Assembly: GCF_003590835.1 (NCBI RefSeq)
Contig: NZ_QYUQ01000002.1
Coordinates: 372,001 to 436,000, forward strand
DNA length: 64,000 bases
Direction: 5' to 3'
From: Noviherbaspirillum sedimenti
GTDB lineage: Bacteria; Pseudomonadota; Gammaproteobacteria; Burkholderiales; Burkholderiaceae_D
Positions 1-7,183 of the stretch are shown here, one piece after another. Position 1 is the stretch's first letter. Every line of letters starts with the position of its first letter. The notes under the pieces were generated by a model, which saw only the letters and a list, made by a program, of their open reading frames with translations, was not told the DNA's origin and ran no database searches. The translations under genes and the position numbers were made by a program.

Positions 1-679
1 TGGTCGGGCCTATCTGGTCAATAATGCCGAACTACGGGTATTGCCGAGCGCGTCGGTTCTTCCCTTCCTTGGCAAGAACGCGAGTCCCAAAAACAGCGAT
101 CTGCTCGTGCTGGGCAATCCCGACCTTGGCGATCGCAGCCTTGATTTGCCCGGCGCCGAAGAAGAGGCAAAACTGCTTTCCAGGTTAAATGCGCGATCCA
201 AACTGCTGTTAAGAAAGCAGGCTTCCGAAACTGCCTTAAGAAAGCTCGGGCCGCAGCATCGGGAAATTCATTTCGCCATGCATGGGAAATTTGCCTCCGA
301 CAATCCTCTATCATCCGGCTTGTACATGTCGGCGGATGCGGAAAACGATGGCTTGCTGACGGTAGGGGAGCTTTACGATTTGCAGCTCAATGTGGATCTG
401 GTGGTCCTGTCCGCATGTGAAACCGCGCTTGGCGACGCCTCTCGCGGGGATGATGTGGTTGGCCTGAACCGCGGTTTTCTATACGCCGGCGCCAGTTCGA
501 TCGTCTCTTCCCTGTGGGAAGTCGATGACCAGGCGACGCGCGATCTGATGCTCGGTTTTTATCAAAACCGGACCGGGTCCGGCAAGGCCGCCGCGCTCAG
601 ACGTGCGCAACTGAAAATCATTGGCAAGTATCCGCATCCTTACTATTGGGCCGCGTTTCAGATCAGCGGCGTGTTCTGA
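1..679 (+). CDS. CHAT domain protein, C-terminal part (5' end outside window)
   Basis: The reading frame is open from base 2 to the TGA at 677-679, so the gene starts before the window. The visible part is the C-terminal half of a CHAT (caspase HetF-associated with TPR) domain: LVLGNPDLG, then the presumed catalytic His in FAMHGKF (codon 281-283) and the presumed catalytic Cys in LSACETALG (codon 416-418), ending in the family-typical HPYYWAAFQISG. It is clearly paralogous to the C-terminus of the TPR-CHAT gene at 713-3052, towards which it is convergent. N-terminal TPRs and a signal peptide would lie outside the window. Protease activity is inferred from the His/Cys pair only. Confidence 0.85.
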   Translation, partial: GRAYLVNNAELRVLPSASVLPFLGKNASPKNSDLLVLGNPDLGDRSLDLPGAEEEAKLLSRLNARSKLLLRKQASETALRKLGPQHREIHFAMHGKFASDNPLSSGLYMSADAENDGLLTVGELYDLQLNVDLVVLSACETALGDASRGDDVVGLNRGFLYAGASSIVSSLWEVDDQATRDLMLGFYQNRTGSGKAAALRRAQLKIIGKYPHPYYWAAFQISGVF

Positions 680-712: not shown

Positions 713-3052
713 TCAGCGCTTGCCCGCCAGCTGGAAGGCCGCCCAGTAATAGGGGTGGGGGTATTTCGCCTTGACTGCCCGCTGCGCCTTCAGCAGGGCA
801 TCGGACTTGGCGGAGACGCCGACTTCCTTGTAGAAGCGGGTCATCATCTCGTAGGTCGCCTGGTCATCGACTTCCCACAGGCTGGCGATGATGCTGGCGG
901 CGCCGGCATAGAAGAACCCGCGGGTCAGGCCAATGACGTCGTCGCCGTTGTCGATTTTCCCGAGCCCGGTTTCGCAGGCGCTCAGGGTGACCAGGTCCGC
1001 ATTTAATTCGAGCGAATACAGTTCGTCGACGGTGAGCGTGCCGGTTTCCATGGCGCTGCCTTTTTTTTCCGGCGCGAGGAACAGTCCCGACTGCAGCGGC
1101 TGCTCCGGATTGAACTTGCCATGGCTGGCGAAATGAATCCAGGCGTATTGGGCGCCTTCCGACTTCACGACGGATTTGGTAGCGGCGCCGCGCAGCAAGA
1201 CTTTGGCATCCGGATGCAGACGGGCGATTTCGGCAGCCTCCTTTTGTGCGCCCGGCAGGTCCAGTTGCGGATTGCCGAGGTCCGGATTGCCCAGCACCAG
1301 CAAGCCCTTGCCGGAGGTTTTGCGTCCGTTCAGAAACTTGAGCATGCTGGCGCTGGGCAAGAGGCGGATGCTGTAGCGATCGACCAGGAATTCCTTGCTA
1401 GCGGCGAGTGCATTGAAGGGCAGGTAATGCAGCACGCCGTGCGGGACGATCAAAAGCTTGCCCTCCTTCGGCAGGCCGAGCGGCGCCAGCAGGCGCGCGT
1501 ACAGCTGGCTGCCGAGCGCGTGAAAGTCGCGCGACTGCGGGTTTTGCACTGCTGCGCGCATGCGTCGTGCCTGTTCGGCCAGGCCGGTACCGTCGAGGCG
1601 GACCGCGCGCAAGGCGCCTTGCGTCGCAACGAAGGCGTACAGGTCGCGGCCGAAGTAATAGAATTCGACCAGCGTTTCATCGGGCTGCAGCAGGCCGCGC
1701 AGTTCCGCTTCGCCGATGCCACTGACCGTCACCAGCGAAGCCAGTTCCGGATCCGCCTTGCGCAGCCGCTCGGATGCGGCCGCCATGCTGCGGCGGACTT
1801 GCTGCTGCCGTTCAAGCTGCTGTGCGGTCGCGCTCAGGCGATCGGGGACCGACAGCGCCGCGTTCAGCCGCGTCATTTCCGCCAGCGAGGCGCCGGCAGT
1901 CGTGGACTGGCCGAAATTTTCTTTCGAGGCGAGCATGTCCACCAGGGCGCGCGCCTTGGCGCGTTCGGCGAGTTCGAAGGCTTCGCCATCGCGTCTGGCG
2001 CGGATCAGCGCGCCGATCAGATGGCTGTAGATGGCCTGCTTGTCGCCGACGAAGCCGATCTTGCCGGCATCGCTGCGGATGGTCGAGCGCTCCTGTTCGA
2101 TGACTTCGACCGCCTGCCGGTAATAGCGGATGGCGTCGGCCGGCTTGCCGTCCTTTTCGGCGATGCGGCCGCGGTTGAACAGGCCGGTCCAGTAAGTATC
2201 CCCTTGCGTGCTGAAACGCGGGTGGGTGAGGGCGGCATCGTAACTGGCGCGCGCATCATCGATGCGTCCCAGTTCCAGCAGCACGGCGCCGCGGCTTGCG
2301 GCTTCGGCGGCGCGCATGTACGACACGCTATCCTCGCCGAACTTCCCGGGTTGCGCATAGAAATTCTGCACCATCGGGCTGCCTGCAAATTTTTCGGTTT
2401 CCTCCAGCGCTAGCGCGTAGTCTTTCGTCAGCATATAAATTTCGGCAAGCCAGTGATGCTTCATGTCAGCCACGGCGGCATCCTGTGCCGTGGGAACATG
2501 AGCGGCAAGCCGCTTTGCCGTATTGCGGGCATTTGCGATGTCGCCTGAAGCTGCATAGACGATGCCAAGCTTGCCAAGTGAATGCACATCGATGTCCTTC
2601 GGGTCTTTCATTGCCATCAGCAAGGCATCGATCGCCCTGCGGTAGTCGCCGACCTGGCGATAGCCTTCCGCGAAGACCTGATAGATCGTGGCCGAGAAAT
2701 CTTGCCGGATGCCGGAACCGTAATCGAACATGAAGACGCCGTTGACGGCGCGCGTGCGCAGTTTGTCGAAGCAGTCCGTCATCTTGCCGAACTGGCGCGC
2801 ATCGCTATAGGCGGTGCAGAGGTGAAAAAGAATGTCGGTCTTCAGTTCGCCTTTTGCCGCAAACGATTCCAGATGCGCGACGTTTTCGGCGTGGAGGCCC
2901 ATGCCTTTCAGCTCGCCCATCTTCATGAGATCGCTGTGGCTCAATTCGACTGTCTGTGATTTGCCATTCGCTGGATTCTGCGGGCTTTGGGCCGACGCCC
3001 AGCCAGCGAGCAGCGAAAGCATCAGGGTTGCCAGAGCGCTTGTCGGTTTCAT
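713..3052 (-). CDS. exported TPR-CHAT domain protein
   Basis: 779 residues. I start at the ATG at 3052, 13 bases after the preceding gene's stop, because this places a signal peptide (MKPTSALATLMLSLLAG, ending WASAQ) at the N-terminus; an upstream in-frame ATG at 3106 would overlap the OmpA gene. Residues of about 50-400 look like tetratricopeptide repeats (motifs such as YRRAIDALLMAM and YDAALTHP). The C-terminal CHAT domain carries His644 (FASHGKF) and Cys693 (LSACETGLG), the caspase-type dyad. CHAT proteins are caspase-clan peptidases often controlled through their TPR part. The signal peptide implies action outside the cytoplasm, unlike the cytoplasmic TPR-CHAT of Craspase. Last gene of a five-gene minus-strand operon. 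Confidence 0.88.
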   Translation of the reverse strand: MKPTSALATLMLSLLAGWASAQSPQNPANGKSQTVELSHSDLMKMGELKGMGLHAENVAHLESFAAKGELKTDILFHLCTAYSDARQFGKMTDCFDKLRTRAVNGVFMFDYGSGIRQDFSATIYQVFAEGYRQVGDYRRAIDALLMAMKDPKDIDVHSLGKLGIVYAASGDIANARNTAKRLAAHVPTAQDAAVADMKHHWLAEIYMLTKDYALALEETEKFAGSPMVQNFYAQPGKFGEDSVSYMRAAEAASRGAVLLELGRIDDARASYDAALTHPRFSTQGDTYWTGLFNRGRIAEKDGKPADAIRYYRQAVEVIEQERSTIRSDAGKIGFVGDKQAIYSHLIGALIRARRDGEAFELAERAKARALVDMLASKENFGQSTTAGASLAEMTRLNAALSVPDRLSATAQQLERQQQVRRSMAAASERLRKADPELASLVTVSGIGEAELRGLLQPDETLVEFYYFGRDLYAFVATQGALRAVRLDGTGLAEQARRMRAAVQNPQSRDFHALGSQLYARLLAPLGLPKEGKLLIVPHGVLHYLPFNALAASKEFLVDRYSIRLLPSASMLKFLNGRKTSGKGLLVLGNPDLGNPQLDLPGAQKEAAEIARLHPDAKVLLRGAATKSVVKSEGAQYAWIHFASHGKFNPEQPLQSGLFLAPEKKGSAMETGTLTVDELYSLELNADLVTLSACETGLGKIDNGDDVIGLTRGFFYAGAASIIASLWEVDDQATYEMMTRFYKEVGVSAKSDALLKAQRAVKAKYPHPYYWAAFQLAGKR

Positions 3053-3065
3053 GAGTATGGCCCGG

Positions 3066-3731
3066 TCAATTGCGGCGCACTTCGACGCGCCGGTTGATTT
3101 CGTCATCCGCCTGATCCGGATTCAGCAGGCGGTCGAAGCCGAAGCCGAGTATCACCAGGCGCTCGCGCGCGATGCCATGCCGTTTCGCCAGATAGTCGCC
3201 GACCGCGGCCGCGCGTTCGCAGGACAGGCGCTTGTTGTAGTCGCCATTTCCCTGCCTGTCGGTATGGCCGGCGATGACGAAGGTCTCGGTGCGAAGTTCA
3301 GGGCTCTTGAGCGCCTGTCCCAGCGCATCGAGCATCTGCTCGGCATCCGCGGACAGCTTCGATGAATCCAGCGCGAAACGCACGTTCAGGTCGACCTTGG
3401 GCGCATCGGTGACATACAAGGCCCGGGTTTTCCCGGCGCCACGCGTGCCTGCGAGTGCATTGCCCGGTGTGTCGCACAGCGCGGTGGTGGCATCCGGCAG
3501 TTTTGCGTCGGGGCGGATCAGGGCCCTGGTGCGGCGTGCAGGAGCCTGGCCATCCGGCATCGGCTTTGCCAGTGCTTCGATCAGTTCCTGCGCAGACGGC
3601 GCATCCAGGCGGCTTTGCGCATGCGCAGGCAGCGACGGCAATGCCAGCGTCGCCATCATCGCGGCAAGAGTGCCGATACGGCGCGGTAAAAAGCGAAAAC
3701 CCGCACGGGGGGGCATGGAGGGCGAATGCAT
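3066..3731 (-). CDS. OmpA family protein, exported
   Basis: 221 residues. The ATG at 3731 is preferred because GGAGAAG lies just upstream and it falls 16 bases after the caspase gene stop. A hydrophobic N-terminal segment ending PAHAQS looks like a signal peptide. The C-terminal ~110 residues are an OmpA_C domain: LNVRFALDSSKL, then IAGHTDRQGNGDYNKRLSCE with the peptidoglycan-contacting Asp and Arg positions, and NRRVEVRRN at the end. The likely role is anchoring to peptidoglycan in the periplasm. It is sandwiched between the caspase and CHAT genes with very short gaps, so it probably belongs functionally to them, perhaps as their tether; that is inference. Confidence 0.85.
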   Translation of the reverse strand: MHSPSMPPRAGFRFLPRRIGTLAAMMATLALPSLPAHAQSRLDAPSAQELIEALAKPMPDGQAPARRTRALIRPDAKLPDATTALCDTPGNALAGTRGAGKTRALYVTDAPKVDLNVRFALDSSKLSADAEQMLDALGQALKSPELRTETFVIAGHTDRQGNGDYNKRLSCERAAAVGDYLAKRHGIARERLVILGFGFDRLLNPDQADDEINRRVEVRRN

Positions 3732-3747
3732 CAACTTCTCCACGCGT

Positions 3748-5172
3748 CTAGTTGACTTCAATGATCGGCAGCACGGCGCTGGCGCCGATGCGTCCCGGCG
3801 CACTGGCCCCTTGCCCCATTCCGACTACGGCCAGGTTACGTACTGCGCGTGTGCTGGCGGCAGTTGAACGGAAAGGCGTACTGGCGATTTCCGTCATGCC
3901 GGCGCCGAATTCGCGCGGCGTCTCCGACAGGATCGCCATGACATAACTGGTACCGGCCGGGCCTGCAGCCTGGATGCCCCAGGATGGGCGCGGCAGCAGC
4001 GTGGTGCCCGCCTGGACATGATTGTTGGCGTCGCGGCTGTTGGGGAACAGAAGGTCGAAGGATTTGCCGTCCGAGCCTACATGCAGCAGGTAGAGATAGC
4101 CACTCTGGTTCGTGGTCACCGAGAGGTCGAGGTAATCCCGACCGATCTTCATGCTGGGCTTGGCGCTGCGCAATTGCACGCGCATGTTTGGCGAGGCCTG
4201 CTGGCGCAGGTTTTCCAGCGCAGCCAGTGCATTGGCTGCGCCGTCAGCGGACGCCGCGGCGGCGCCGGCAGTGCCGCCCTGCGCCGGCATGGCGGAATGG
4301 GCGAAGGCCAGCGGCAGGTCGGCGTTGCCGACCAGTGTGATGGTTTGGTTGTAGTTATTGTTGCGAATCCATTCCTGTGCGCAACGCTGCAGTTCGCGTC
4401 CGGTCAGCATGCCGCTGCGGTCGGCGTCCGCGCGCGCATCCAGGCAACTGGACCAGGCGACCGTGGCGGAACTGCCACGTGAGGTTGCAAACGCTACCTC
4501 ATTGTCGGCGGCAGCGGCGATGTAGAGGAAATTGGCACCCGCCTTAGCGGCTGTCGGTACCAGGTTGCGCGTCATCTTTGCATTGATCGCATTGCCGCAC
4601 TGGTAATTCGCGGTGTTCGTCACATCCTTCCAGGTTTTTGCCTTGCGATCGGGATCGGCATGGATGTCGCGACTCTTGGTGGCCTGTCCGCCCGAGAAAC
4701 AGGAGTCATTCAGCATCACGACCTGTCCCGCTTTTGCCGCGAGTTGCTTGAGCGTCGTCTCTAGTTCAATGTCATCAAAGGTGCTCATGTCATGCGTCAC
4801 CATGCCTTCGGAACATTTGCCAGCCCCGCGCGAGGACCTTTGCGAGCCGTGTCCGGAGTAGTAGATGAAGACATTGTCACCCTGCGCAATGCGCGTCGTC
4901 AGCGTCGCCAGCGTCGCTTGCAACCCGTGCTGGGACAGCTGGCTATCCTTGTGGTCGAGGATGTTCGGTTCCTGCACGCCCATGGATTGCGCAATCTTGC
5001 GCGCCATGCGGGCATCCAGATCGATTCCCGGCAGCGATGCATTCGGATTACTGTAATTCCCGATTGTCAAGATCAGGGCATAGTTCTCGGCATGCAGCGG
5101 CGCTGCCGCGAGGGCACCGAGTGCAGCCAATCCGAAGGGGGCGATGTGTCGCTTCAGTGAAGTCAATTTCAT
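3748..5172 (-). CDS. exported caspase family protein with C-terminal DUF4384-like domain
   Basis: 474 residues with a signal peptide (MKLTSLKRHIAPFGLAALGA, cleavage near LHAEN). The peptidase C14 domain runs from about residue 30 to 290: IGNYSNPNASLPGIDLDAR, His108 in YYSGHGSQ and Cys158 in LNDSCFSGG, the classic caspase/metacaspase dyad. After a Gly/Ala-rich linker, residues of about 330-445 look like DUF4384 (SGYLYLLHVGSDGKSFDLLF), a module often attached to caspases and Ser/Thr kinases. Middle gene of the operon, 37 bases from the DUF4384-like gene upstream. Substrate unknown. Metacaspase-like activity (Arg/Lys specificity, Ca dependence) is a family expectation, not visible here. Confidence 0.9.
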   Translation of the reverse strand: MKLTSLKRHIAPFGLAALGALAAAPLHAENYALILTIGNYSNPNASLPGIDLDARMARKIAQSMGVQEPNILDHKDSQLSQHGLQATLATLTTRIAQGDNVFIYYSGHGSQRSSRGAGKCSEGMVTHDMSTFDDIELETTLKQLAAKAGQVVMLNDSCFSGGQATKSRDIHADPDRKAKTWKDVTNTANYQCGNAINAKMTRNLVPTAAKAGANFLYIAAAADNEVAFATSRGSSATVAWSSCLDARADADRSGMLTGRELQRCAQEWIRNNNYNQTITLVGNADLPLAFAHSAMPAQGGTAGAAAASADGAANALAALENLRQQASPNMRVQLRSAKPSMKIGRDYLDLSVTTNQSGYLYLLHVGSDGKSFDLLFPNSRDANNHVQAGTTLLPRPSWGIQAAGPAGTSYVMAILSETPREFGAGMTEIASTPFRSTAASTRAVRNLAVVGMGQGASAPGRIGASAVLPIIEVN

Positions 5173-5209
5173 TCCGGTTCCAGTCGTGTCGTCGAGGAAA
5201 AGCGGCGGC

Positions 5210-6256
5210 TCAATTGCCGTGCCGCAGGACCAGGATCTGGCTCAGTCCAAGATAGGCGCCGTTTTGCGCCAGTTGCGAATAGGCGGTCGCTTCCGGCATG
5301 TCCTGGCGATACACGGGCTGGCGGTTCAGTTCCTGGTTGGTAGCCTGCGGATGGCGGACGTTCAGCGATAGCAGTTCGAGGCCGGTCTTGCCTTCGAAAG
5401 TAAAGTATTCGCTGGCGCCCAGGGGCAGCATGGCCACTTCGCCGGCCTTGATCCGTACGACCTGGTCGGCGCGGGCCGGATAAAGCTGGCCGGCCCAGCT
5501 TGGCGGATGGCTGAACACGCCCTCCGGGCTGACCGTGCCCGGCTGGGCGCGCAACGCGTCCAGTGACACGATCGCATCGAAGGTGCTGACCAGCCGTAAT
5601 TTGAAGCGCTCGCCGGTGCGGAACGCTGCCACCAGCGAACGGGTTTCGGTCACGCGGTTCTGGCTATCGAGCATCATGGCCGATACCGTTACGCCCTGAT
5701 AATTTGCCCTGCCGTCCCATGGTTTATTGGGATCGAATGCGGCCTGCTGCGTCGCGAAGGGCACGTCGGGTTGCCCCAGGATCAGCGGCGCCGGGCTGAA
5801 GTGCGGCGCCTGTGTAAACGGAATCTGCTGTCCAGGTTGCAGATTGTAAGAAGCGGGCTGCGGTGACGGAATCCAGGCGCTTTGCGAGCCTTGCGCCATG
5901 GTCGCCAGGCTGCCTTGCAACTGCGGGGCGATCTGGTTGACGAATGCCGCCGCCAGCGAGACTGCGGTGGACGGCTGTGCGGCACCTGCCTGCGCCGGCA
6001 TGGCGGCACCGCCGATGCGGTTGTTCGCCCAATTGTTGATCGCCTGGAAAATGGTCAGTCCAGCATACCCGGCCAGGTTGAGCAAGCCGAATTTCTGCGT
6101 CGCTTCAGTTTGCTTCTCGGCAGGCGGCAGCGTCTGCGTGGACGATTGGGCGTGCGCGGTCAGCGGCGTCATGCAAGCCAGCGTCAGGCAGATACCGGTG
6201 CGGGCAGCCTGTTTTGCGAATGTCCGGCCAGCGCGCGATTCGGAGATGGTTTTCAT
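5210..6256 (-). CDS. exported DUF4384-like protein of the caspase operon
   Basis: 348 residues with an N-terminal signal sequence (hydrophobic stretch TGICLTLACMTPLTAHAQ). Residues 40-150 are Ala/Gln-rich and may contain one further hydrophobic stretch (LLNLAGYAGLTIFQAI). The C-terminal part has the pattern of DUF4384-type beta domains: FRTGERFKLRLVSTFDAIVS, then LYPARADQVVRI and MLPLGASEYFTFEG. Function is not known. The matching module in the caspase gene and in the next gene upstream suggests a shared structural or partner-binding role. Gap to the caspase gene is 37 bases, fitting one transcript. Confidence 0.7.
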   Translation of the reverse strand: MKTISESRAGRTFAKQAARTGICLTLACMTPLTAHAQSSTQTLPPAEKQTEATQKFGLLNLAGYAGLTIFQAINNWANNRIGGAAMPAQAGAAQPSTAVSLAAAFVNQIAPQLQGSLATMAQGSQSAWIPSPQPASYNLQPGQQIPFTQAPHFSPAPLILGQPDVPFATQQAAFDPNKPWDGRANYQGVTVSAMMLDSQNRVTETRSLVAAFRTGERFKLRLVSTFDAIVSLDALRAQPGTVSPEGVFSHPPSWAGQLYPARADQVVRIKAGEVAMLPLGASEYFTFEGKTGLELLSLNVRHPQATNQELNRQPVYRQDMPEATAYSQLAQNGAYLGLSQILVLRHGN

Positions 6257-6291
6257 TGTGTCGTTCCCTGGATGGTCAGAGAGCTGCGGGT

Positions 6292-6909
6292 TTATTGATG
6301 GCGGATATGAATCGTGACAAATCCGCCCTGGCCGTTCGGGTTGTAGAAATAAGTGCCCTGGTTGGTGTTTTCCGTCACCAGCCGAATGTCTTTGGCTGAC
6401 TTGCCGGCGCTGCCATTGGCGGCCATCATGCCCTGGAATGCAGGGAAAGGATCGCCGCTATGGCCCGAGGGCAGCAAAACAACGTGCAACTGATCCACGC
6501 CGCGATTGCCGGTCAATTGCATGAGGTTACTGACGGATTCTACGCCTGCCTTGACGCGCGCTCGCCAGATTGGCGCCTTGCTGGTTTCGCCGACAGGGGG
6601 GGTGTTGAAGATCGCAACCTCGCCGTCACGGGGCGAAAGGAGCTTGATGCGGAATTTGTCGCCGGTCGAGAAGGGGGCCTCGACGGAGCGCGTAACCAGC
6701 ATGTTGAGCGGTCCTTCAGTCAGCACGGAGACGGCCAGGGCATCGGGTCGGGCCGTATTGGCCGCCGCACCCGGCGCCGCGGCAGCTTGTGCCAGGGATG
6801 CCAGCACGACTTCCTTGGCACGCGGGGCGGACTGGGATTGCGCGTAGACGCCGCAGGCGGCAAGGCCTAGTTGGGCGGCGAGCAGGATTTGTGTGACTAA
6901 ACGGTTCAT
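6292..6909 (-). CDS. exported DUF4384-like protein, first gene of the caspase operon
   Basis: 205 residues. The ATG at 6909 has AGGGAAAAAG directly upstream and opens a signal peptide (MNRLVTQILLAAQLGLAACG, then VYAQSQ). A Cys sits in LAACGVYAQ, so lipidation is possible but the signal-peptidase I reading (VYAQ) is equally good. The middle holds FSTGDKFRIKLLSPRDGEVA and VGETSKAPIWRARVKAGVES, the same layout as the DUF4384-like part of the downstream genes. Function unknown. An upstream ATG at 7008 in the same frame lacks a ribosome site and a sensible N-terminus. It leads the operon ending at 713. Confidence 0.68.
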   Translation of the reverse strand: MNRLVTQILLAAQLGLAACGVYAQSQSAPRAKEVVLASLAQAAAAPGAAANTARPDALAVSVLTEGPLNMLVTRSVEAPFSTGDKFRIKLLSPRDGEVAIFNTPPVGETSKAPIWRARVKAGVESVSNLMQLTGNRGVDQLHVVLLPSGHSGDPFPAFQGMMAANGSAGKSAKDIRLVTENTNQGTYFYNPNGQGGFVTIHIRHQ

Positions 6910-7155: not shown

Positions 7156-7183
7156 AAAAAAAACGGCCTTCCGGCCGGTTTTT
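7156..7183. terminator. bidirectional intrinsic terminator after the Bax-inhibitor gene
   Basis: An inverted repeat CGGCC-loop-GGCCG is flanked by A-runs on one side and T-runs on the other, 18 bases past the stop of the gene at 7201-7890 on the minus strand. It should work in both directions. Confidence 0.75.

Follow-up and report, generated by a model that had tools for sequence, protein, structure and literature searches.

The 64,000-nucleotide stretch of Noviherbaspirillum sedimenti DNA analyzed here (assembly GCF_003590835.1, contig NZ_QYUQ01000002.1, positions 372,001 to 436,000; "the window") contains an operon of five minus-strand genes, which encode two proteins termed G1 and G2, a caspase of the C14 family, an OmpA-type protein and a protein that combines TPR repeats with a CHAT domain (Table 1). 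The explanation that we consider best, at a probability of roughly 0.45, is that the operon specifies a periplasmic, peptidoglycan-anchored proteolytic module triggered by envelope disturbance. The anatomy and recurrence of this putative exported caspase/CHAT/OmpA module are well supported by sequence comparison; we infer protease activity, calcium control, complex formation, the order of cleavage, the trigger and the substrates.

A scan of species genomes found at least 306 loci encoding relatives of the caspase, of which 80 were kept. Counts over 71 loci refer to those with a full caspase open reading frame (ORF), the window left out (64 named loci and 7 from the window's family). An OmpA gene lies near the caspase in 38 of them, CHASE2 in 22, a G2-type gene in 20, CHAT in 19, MlaE together with MlaD in 10 and G1 in 6; one or more of OmpA, CHAT, G1 and G2 are present in 56 loci. 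When the window is included, the caspase has OmpA as an immediate neighbor on its own strand in 30/72 loci, and CHAT in 4/72. An order-wide sample of 399 genomes contained the caspase in 16, N. sedimenti among them (E 1e-60); for 12 of these 16 hits the locus was fetched, and a CHAT gene was present within about 10 kb in 7 and an OmpA gene in 9. Set against a background of 94 CHAT matches in 294 family genomes, again including our own, 7/12 would occur by chance with a probability of about 4e-18, the expectation being near 0.015 (5-Mb genomes are assumed, and the family background is used for the order). If genomes average 5 Mb, the clustering of caspase with CHAT is far above chance. The initial annotation had proposed that exported caspase, TPR-CHAT protein and peptidoglycan-binding OmpA protein belong together, and the proximity of their genes bears this out. 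Loose co-transcription of unrelated exported proteins with no joint function would account for the strong variation of gene orders and partners among loci, but it is hard to reconcile with 7/12 order-wide loci or with an OmpA gene placed so often directly beside the caspase, and we consider it very improbable.

The arrangement of the shared genes differs from locus to locus. G1, G2, caspase and OmpA follow one another in this order, without CHAT, in Massilia (L111); caspase, OmpA, a small protein and CHAT do so in an alphaproteobacterial genome, an uncultured Rhodospirillaceae metagenome-assembled genome (L033). The order is OmpA, caspase, small protein and CHAT in Neisseriaceae JH1-16 and Crenobacter, OmpA, CHAT and caspase in Pseudomonas thermotolerans, and G2, CHAT (one or two copies) and caspase in Gallionella and Ferrigenium. 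Conservation of gene order outside the strain, which the initial annotation had singled out for checking, is partial: the blocks in Massilia and in the alphaproteobacterial genome speak for it, whereas the full set of five genes, and with it their exact order, was seen in no other genome fetched. This last result weighs against the proposed module, as do several others. None of OmpA, CHAT, G1 and G2 lies near the caspase in 15/71 loci, some of them on short contigs; OmpA genes are common; 14/71 caspases fail the motif-based export test described below; and Pfam EF-hand models do not match the window caspase at E 1.

The caspase matches Pfam C14 (E 2.3e-14, 54.1 bits against a cut-off of 21.4) and DUF4384 (E 9.9e-18, 64.5 bits against 27), and the solved structures matched by its sequence are metacaspases and GSU0716. 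A protein search yielded 279 relatives among 8,000 candidates scored, and the best 120 of the 279, window protein included, were compared; a second set of 73 proteins was drawn from genomic loci. His108 is kept in 120/120 and 72/73 of these two sets, respectively, and Cys158 in 120/120 and 71/73. Four non-catalytic cysteines are present in all 120 listed members, and in 115 of these the mature protein has five cysteines, no more and no fewer. D53 and D156 are found in every member of both sets; by way of a metacaspase-4 alignment and PMC6426788, we take them to correspond to the S1-pocket residues Asp95 and Asp211 of the trypanosome metacaspase TbMC2. Because these aspartates are invariant, a preference for a basic P1 residue is expected. 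K179, 21 residues past the active-site cysteine, is similarly constant (120/120 and 70/73).

A 12-residue EF-hand-like loop sits between Cys243 and Cys264 of the caspase. A strict criterion, the PROSITE canonical calcium-binding loop pattern, matches 105/120 listed members (window included) and 41/73 locus proteins; a relaxed pattern matches 112/120 and 64/73, and hits 4 times elsewhere over some 100,000 residues. Pfam EF-hand_5 matches 13 of 25 aligned members, with a best E of 0.0015. From these features we infer that the caspase is an oxidized, calcium-binding orthocaspase with a basic P1 preference. In a quick tree of 73 caspases the window protein pairs with that of Massilia L111 (support 99), and CHAT partners are scattered over several separate branches.

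The TPR-CHAT protein carries TPRs and a CHAT domain recognized by Pfam at E 1.7e-70 (238.2 bits against a cut-off of 24). Its His644 corresponds to H667 in stop-to-stop numbering, an offset of 23; the catalytic numbering of both proteins is as originally given. The CHAT His/Cys pair is retained in 37/37 aligned rows that reach the site, the other 3 of the 40 rows being fragments without it, and Cys79 and Cys94 are kept in 12/12 close relatives. Loss of the catalytic His and Cys in homologs, named at the outset as a finding that would tell against the proposal, is not the pattern in either family, where all or nearly all members keep them. One alternative is a non-proteolytic scaffold, in which caspase and CHAT folds bind at the wall while the enzymes stay idle. 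Pseudo-orthocaspases are described in the portion of PMC6426788 covered, and the exported members are without known activity; yet the dyads, S1-pocket aspartates and linker lysine show little or no variation, and we regard a scaffold as rather unlikely.

An aspartate and an arginine of the OmpA domain serve as ligands for peptidoglycan. The OmpA-type protein of the operon matches Pfam OmpA at E 7.7e-19 (68.3 bits against a cut-off of 27.2), and among OmpA proteins that adjoin caspases the ligand Asp is present in 29/30 and the Arg in 30/30. The same 30 partners contain no cysteine in 24 cases, two in five and three in one. Taken together, the cysteine patterns of the caspase, CHAT and OmpA proteins fit an oxidizing compartment.

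Export was assessed by our own motif-based signal-peptide test, which cannot tell a signal peptide from a membrane helix. Among controls, ndk, rlmN, ispG and hisS fail, PilF is called a lipoprotein and the multispanning Bax1-I is wrongly positive. All five operon proteins pass this crude test, as the initial annotation had expected, and so do 57/71 caspases, 21/25 CHAT proteins and 39/53 OmpA proteins of the relatives, against a background of 83/371 other ORFs and 0/16 MlaF-type ATPases. For G1 the test chose a lipobox (LAAC); since its cysteine is not conserved in relatives, we read the sequence as an ordinary signal ending in VYA. Another small, apparently exported protein, about 170 residues long and not matched by Pfam (family f12; L045, L049, L052 and L033), is repeatedly encoded between caspase and CHAT, and 10/10 of its members pass the test. 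Signal peptides would serve equally well for secretion past the outer membrane, as part of a competitor-directed or matrix-processing protease set, and in a genus relative this chromosomal site is taken up by an RTX secretion system. However, the wall-binding OmpA partner and the lipoprotein-type signals of 6/25 CHAT proteins place the set inside the envelope, and there is no secretion gene within the operon; we judge this alternative quite improbable.

Pfam models match neither G1 nor G2 of the window. None of 23 aligned members of the G1 family (31 relatives were found) matches any Pfam family at E 0.1, and G1 aligns with G2 at an hhalign probability of 93%. In the G2 family 5/17 members touch DUF4384 (best E 0.006), and one wider relative matches it at E 6.7e-5, short of the cut-off. 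A structure model of G2 has a mean pLDDT of 60.7, higher over residues 180-345, and the C-terminal beta domain in about this region is probably a divergent DUF4384. Compared with the DUF4384 domain of the caspase, G1 and G2 reach hhalign probabilities of 1.9 and 0.4, and we rejected the idea that they carry a plain DUF4384 of that kind; neither aligns with it. The description of both as DUF4384-like is weakly supported, for G2 by its five matching relatives and the wider one, and for G1 only by way of its resemblance to G2.

If the operon does encode a wall-anchored proteolytic module, it might work as follows. All five proteins would leave the cytoplasm, as their signals suggest, and the OmpA-type protein would tether them to the wall. 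The caspase would be a disulfide-stabilized orthocaspase cutting after Arg or Lys; its EF-hand-like loop would bind calcium, and its DUF4384 beta domain would serve for docking. Exported beta proteins acting as adaptors or sensors may be the part of G1 and G2, and the TPR-CHAT protein may be a further protease of the caspase clan, controlled through its TPR region. A disturbance of the envelope (wall, outer-membrane lipids or calcium) would then lead to the cleavage of proteins located there, and the output in relatives probably also runs via CHASE2 proteins and cyclases. A bolder version, which we consider unlikely, is a self-contained extracytoplasmic cascade in which a wall-anchored, calcium-loaded, disulfide-locked caspase frees itself at Lys179 on breach of the envelope and activates TPR-CHAT, a periplasmic counterpart of inflammasome-type proteolysis that would in relatives be coupled to CHASE2/cyclase signaling and MCE-type lipid transport. 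The relay from caspase to CHAT put forward in the initial annotation is not supported as stated, no direct evidence for such cleavage having been found.

The same annotation suggested sensing of phage or competitor attack. Direct evidence for this was likewise not found, and the partners direct attention elsewhere. Neighbors that recur beside the caspase include a second caspase, CHASE2 proteins, some of which bear an adenylate cyclase domain, MlaD and MlaE, a partial ABC ATPase, a protein that resembles FecR by eye (no Pfam match) and, in some loci, an extracytoplasmic function sigma factor. CHAT genes of the family that lack this caspase keep similar company in 6/14 loci fetched, three with OmpA (L142, L143 and L148) and three with CHASE2-cyclase (L146, L150 and L151). 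The recurrent CHASE2, cyclase, FecR-like and MlaD/MlaE partners point to envelope signaling or lipid homeostasis rather than to phage or competitor sensing. In L059, L060, L061 and L063, from Gallionellaceae and their kin, caspase, CHAT, MlaD/MlaE, CHASE2-cyclase and FecR-like genes form one cluster, which suggests that exported caspases are linked there to lipid transport and cyclic nucleotide signaling. In L060 the cluster further includes a caspase joined to an FGE-sulfatase domain (1919-4000), in addition to the first.

The module is patchily distributed. The caspase is matched at E 1e-30 in 15/392 family genomes, our own included, and in 6 of these the match covers DUF4384 only. Within the genus only one of five further genomes has a caspase relative, 35% identical and without CHAT beside it. 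The operon lies at an insertion site, the rlmD/Bax1-I junction (G000:C2:368841-379890; L131-L141 in relatives). Of 60 genomes surveyed, 13 had no usable flanking pair on one contig; in the remaining 47 the two genes are less than 300 bases apart in 29 (own included), 300-2000 bases in 7 and farther in 11, and the site is therefore usually empty. Ten cargo proteins scanned from six relatives at this site comprise RTX/type I secretion, NorQ-type AAA, MFS, histidine kinase, transposase and proteins of unknown function. A defense island was considered for the site and rejected, these ten proteins being mixed cargo. A mobile carrier was rejected as well, on searches of plasmid and phage records with the caspase and of phage records with CHAT: two plasmid records match the caspase over DUF4384 only, phage records contain no match to it, and for CHAT they contain a single weak one (25.6%).

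These data bear on the possibility of a periplasmic anti-phage or abortive-infection system, in which phage entry through the envelope would activate caspase or CHAT and kill or halt the cell. Caspase and CHAT domains act as effectors of defense systems, according to the part of PMC10907252 covered, and both the sparse occurrence of the cassette and its frequently empty site would suit such a role. PADLOC models, for which no cut-offs are listed here, also respond: caspase at E 1.1e-11, TPR at E 2.4e-4, and ZorB models at E 4.4e-8 by way of the shared OmpA/MotB domain. These matches, however, reflect shared domains only. In the mixed cargo of relatives PADLOC models pick out transporter, AAA or kinase proteins, and the strongest hit, mad3 at E 6.2e-27, is to an ABC transporter. 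Phage records offer nothing for the caspase, and the recurrent partners are envelope and lipid genes. We consider an anti-phage system unlikely.

The short-gapped arrangement of the operon was confirmed, the five ORFs as called in the window being separated by 35, 37, 16 and 13 bases. No sigma-70 promoter for the operon was found between 600 and 7300 (1.7 expected); in the same interval 9 terminator-like sites were found against 6.9 expected, on consensus match only. A second TPR-CHAT gene, whose product is 43% identical to that of the operon over 530 amino acids (aa), converges on the operon. Two consecutive CHAT genes are also present in Candidatus Ferrigenium (L060). The N. sedimenti genome contains two CHAT genes and one C14 gene above cut-off. 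Its only other DUF4384 gene (L127 1-1884; G000:C2:284836-286719) appears by eye to encode a Ser/Thr kinase that contains a membrane helix and carries DUF4384 at its C-terminus, and is adjoined by an exported formylglycine-enzyme-like gene.

Table 1. Features of the caspase/CHAT/OmpA operon and its borders; positions are those of the window.
Feature	Position	Strand	Description
G1	6292..6909 (ORF 6909-6292)	-	predicted exported 205-aa protein, distant relative of G2
G2	5210..6256	-	predicted exported 348-aa protein; C-terminal beta domain, residues ~180-345
C14 caspase	3748..5172	-	predicted exported, 474 aa; His108/Cys158; EF-hand-like loop 249-260 between Cys243 and Cys264; DUF4384 343-419
OmpA-type protein	3066..3731	-	predicted exported, 221 aa; peptidoglycan-binding Asp and Arg kept
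TPR-CHAT protein	713..3052	-	predicted exported, 779 aa; His644/Cys693; extra Cys79/Cys94
Second TPR-CHAT gene, 3' end	1..679	+	convergent with operon; lipoprotein signal; whole ORF G000:C2:370271-372679
Terminator-like hairpin, T-runs on both sides	7164..7177	.	between Bax1-I and operon; consensus match only

Bacterial caspase-clan proteases have so far been discussed mainly as cytoplasmic effectors of conflict or death. A widespread exported branch would make them envelope enzymes as well, would provide a testable setting for prokaryotic caspase function, and would give DUF4384 a place, if not yet a role. Our literature search, the scope of which left out subscription journals and preprints, found no description of the gene set, no combination of caspase, CHAT domain and DUF4384 or CHASE2, and no use of phrases such as periplasmic caspase.

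Several known systems share parts of the module. EACC1-associated caspases of conflict systems (NF047832) have the caspase fold in common with it, but the window caspase scores 24.7 bits against a cut-off of 140, and no EACC1-type partner genes were recognized here. The metacaspase operons surveyed in PMC3501461 come close in their OmpA partners, present in 14/217 operons, and in N-terminal helices, possibly signal peptides, of 46 single-domain sequences; in the portion of that survey covered, partners of the CHAT or DUF4384 type go unmentioned, as do EF loops and cysteine patterns, and no system is put forward. In the part of PMC6426788 covered, an EF-hand motif is reported for 7 archaeal orthocaspases and DUF4384 for an alphaproteobacterial orthocaspase clade. 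The archaeal proteins resemble ours in joining a caspase with an EF-hand, whereas the loop described here lies between two invariant cysteines past the caspase core, in a putatively exported DUF4384 protein. Csx29 of Craspase (type III-E CRISPR) shares TPRs and a CHAT domain with a His/Cys dyad; the operon protein scores 55.1 bits against the NCBIfam Csx29 model, below its cut-off of 300, and differs from Csx29 in that it appears to be exported and is encoded beside a caspase.

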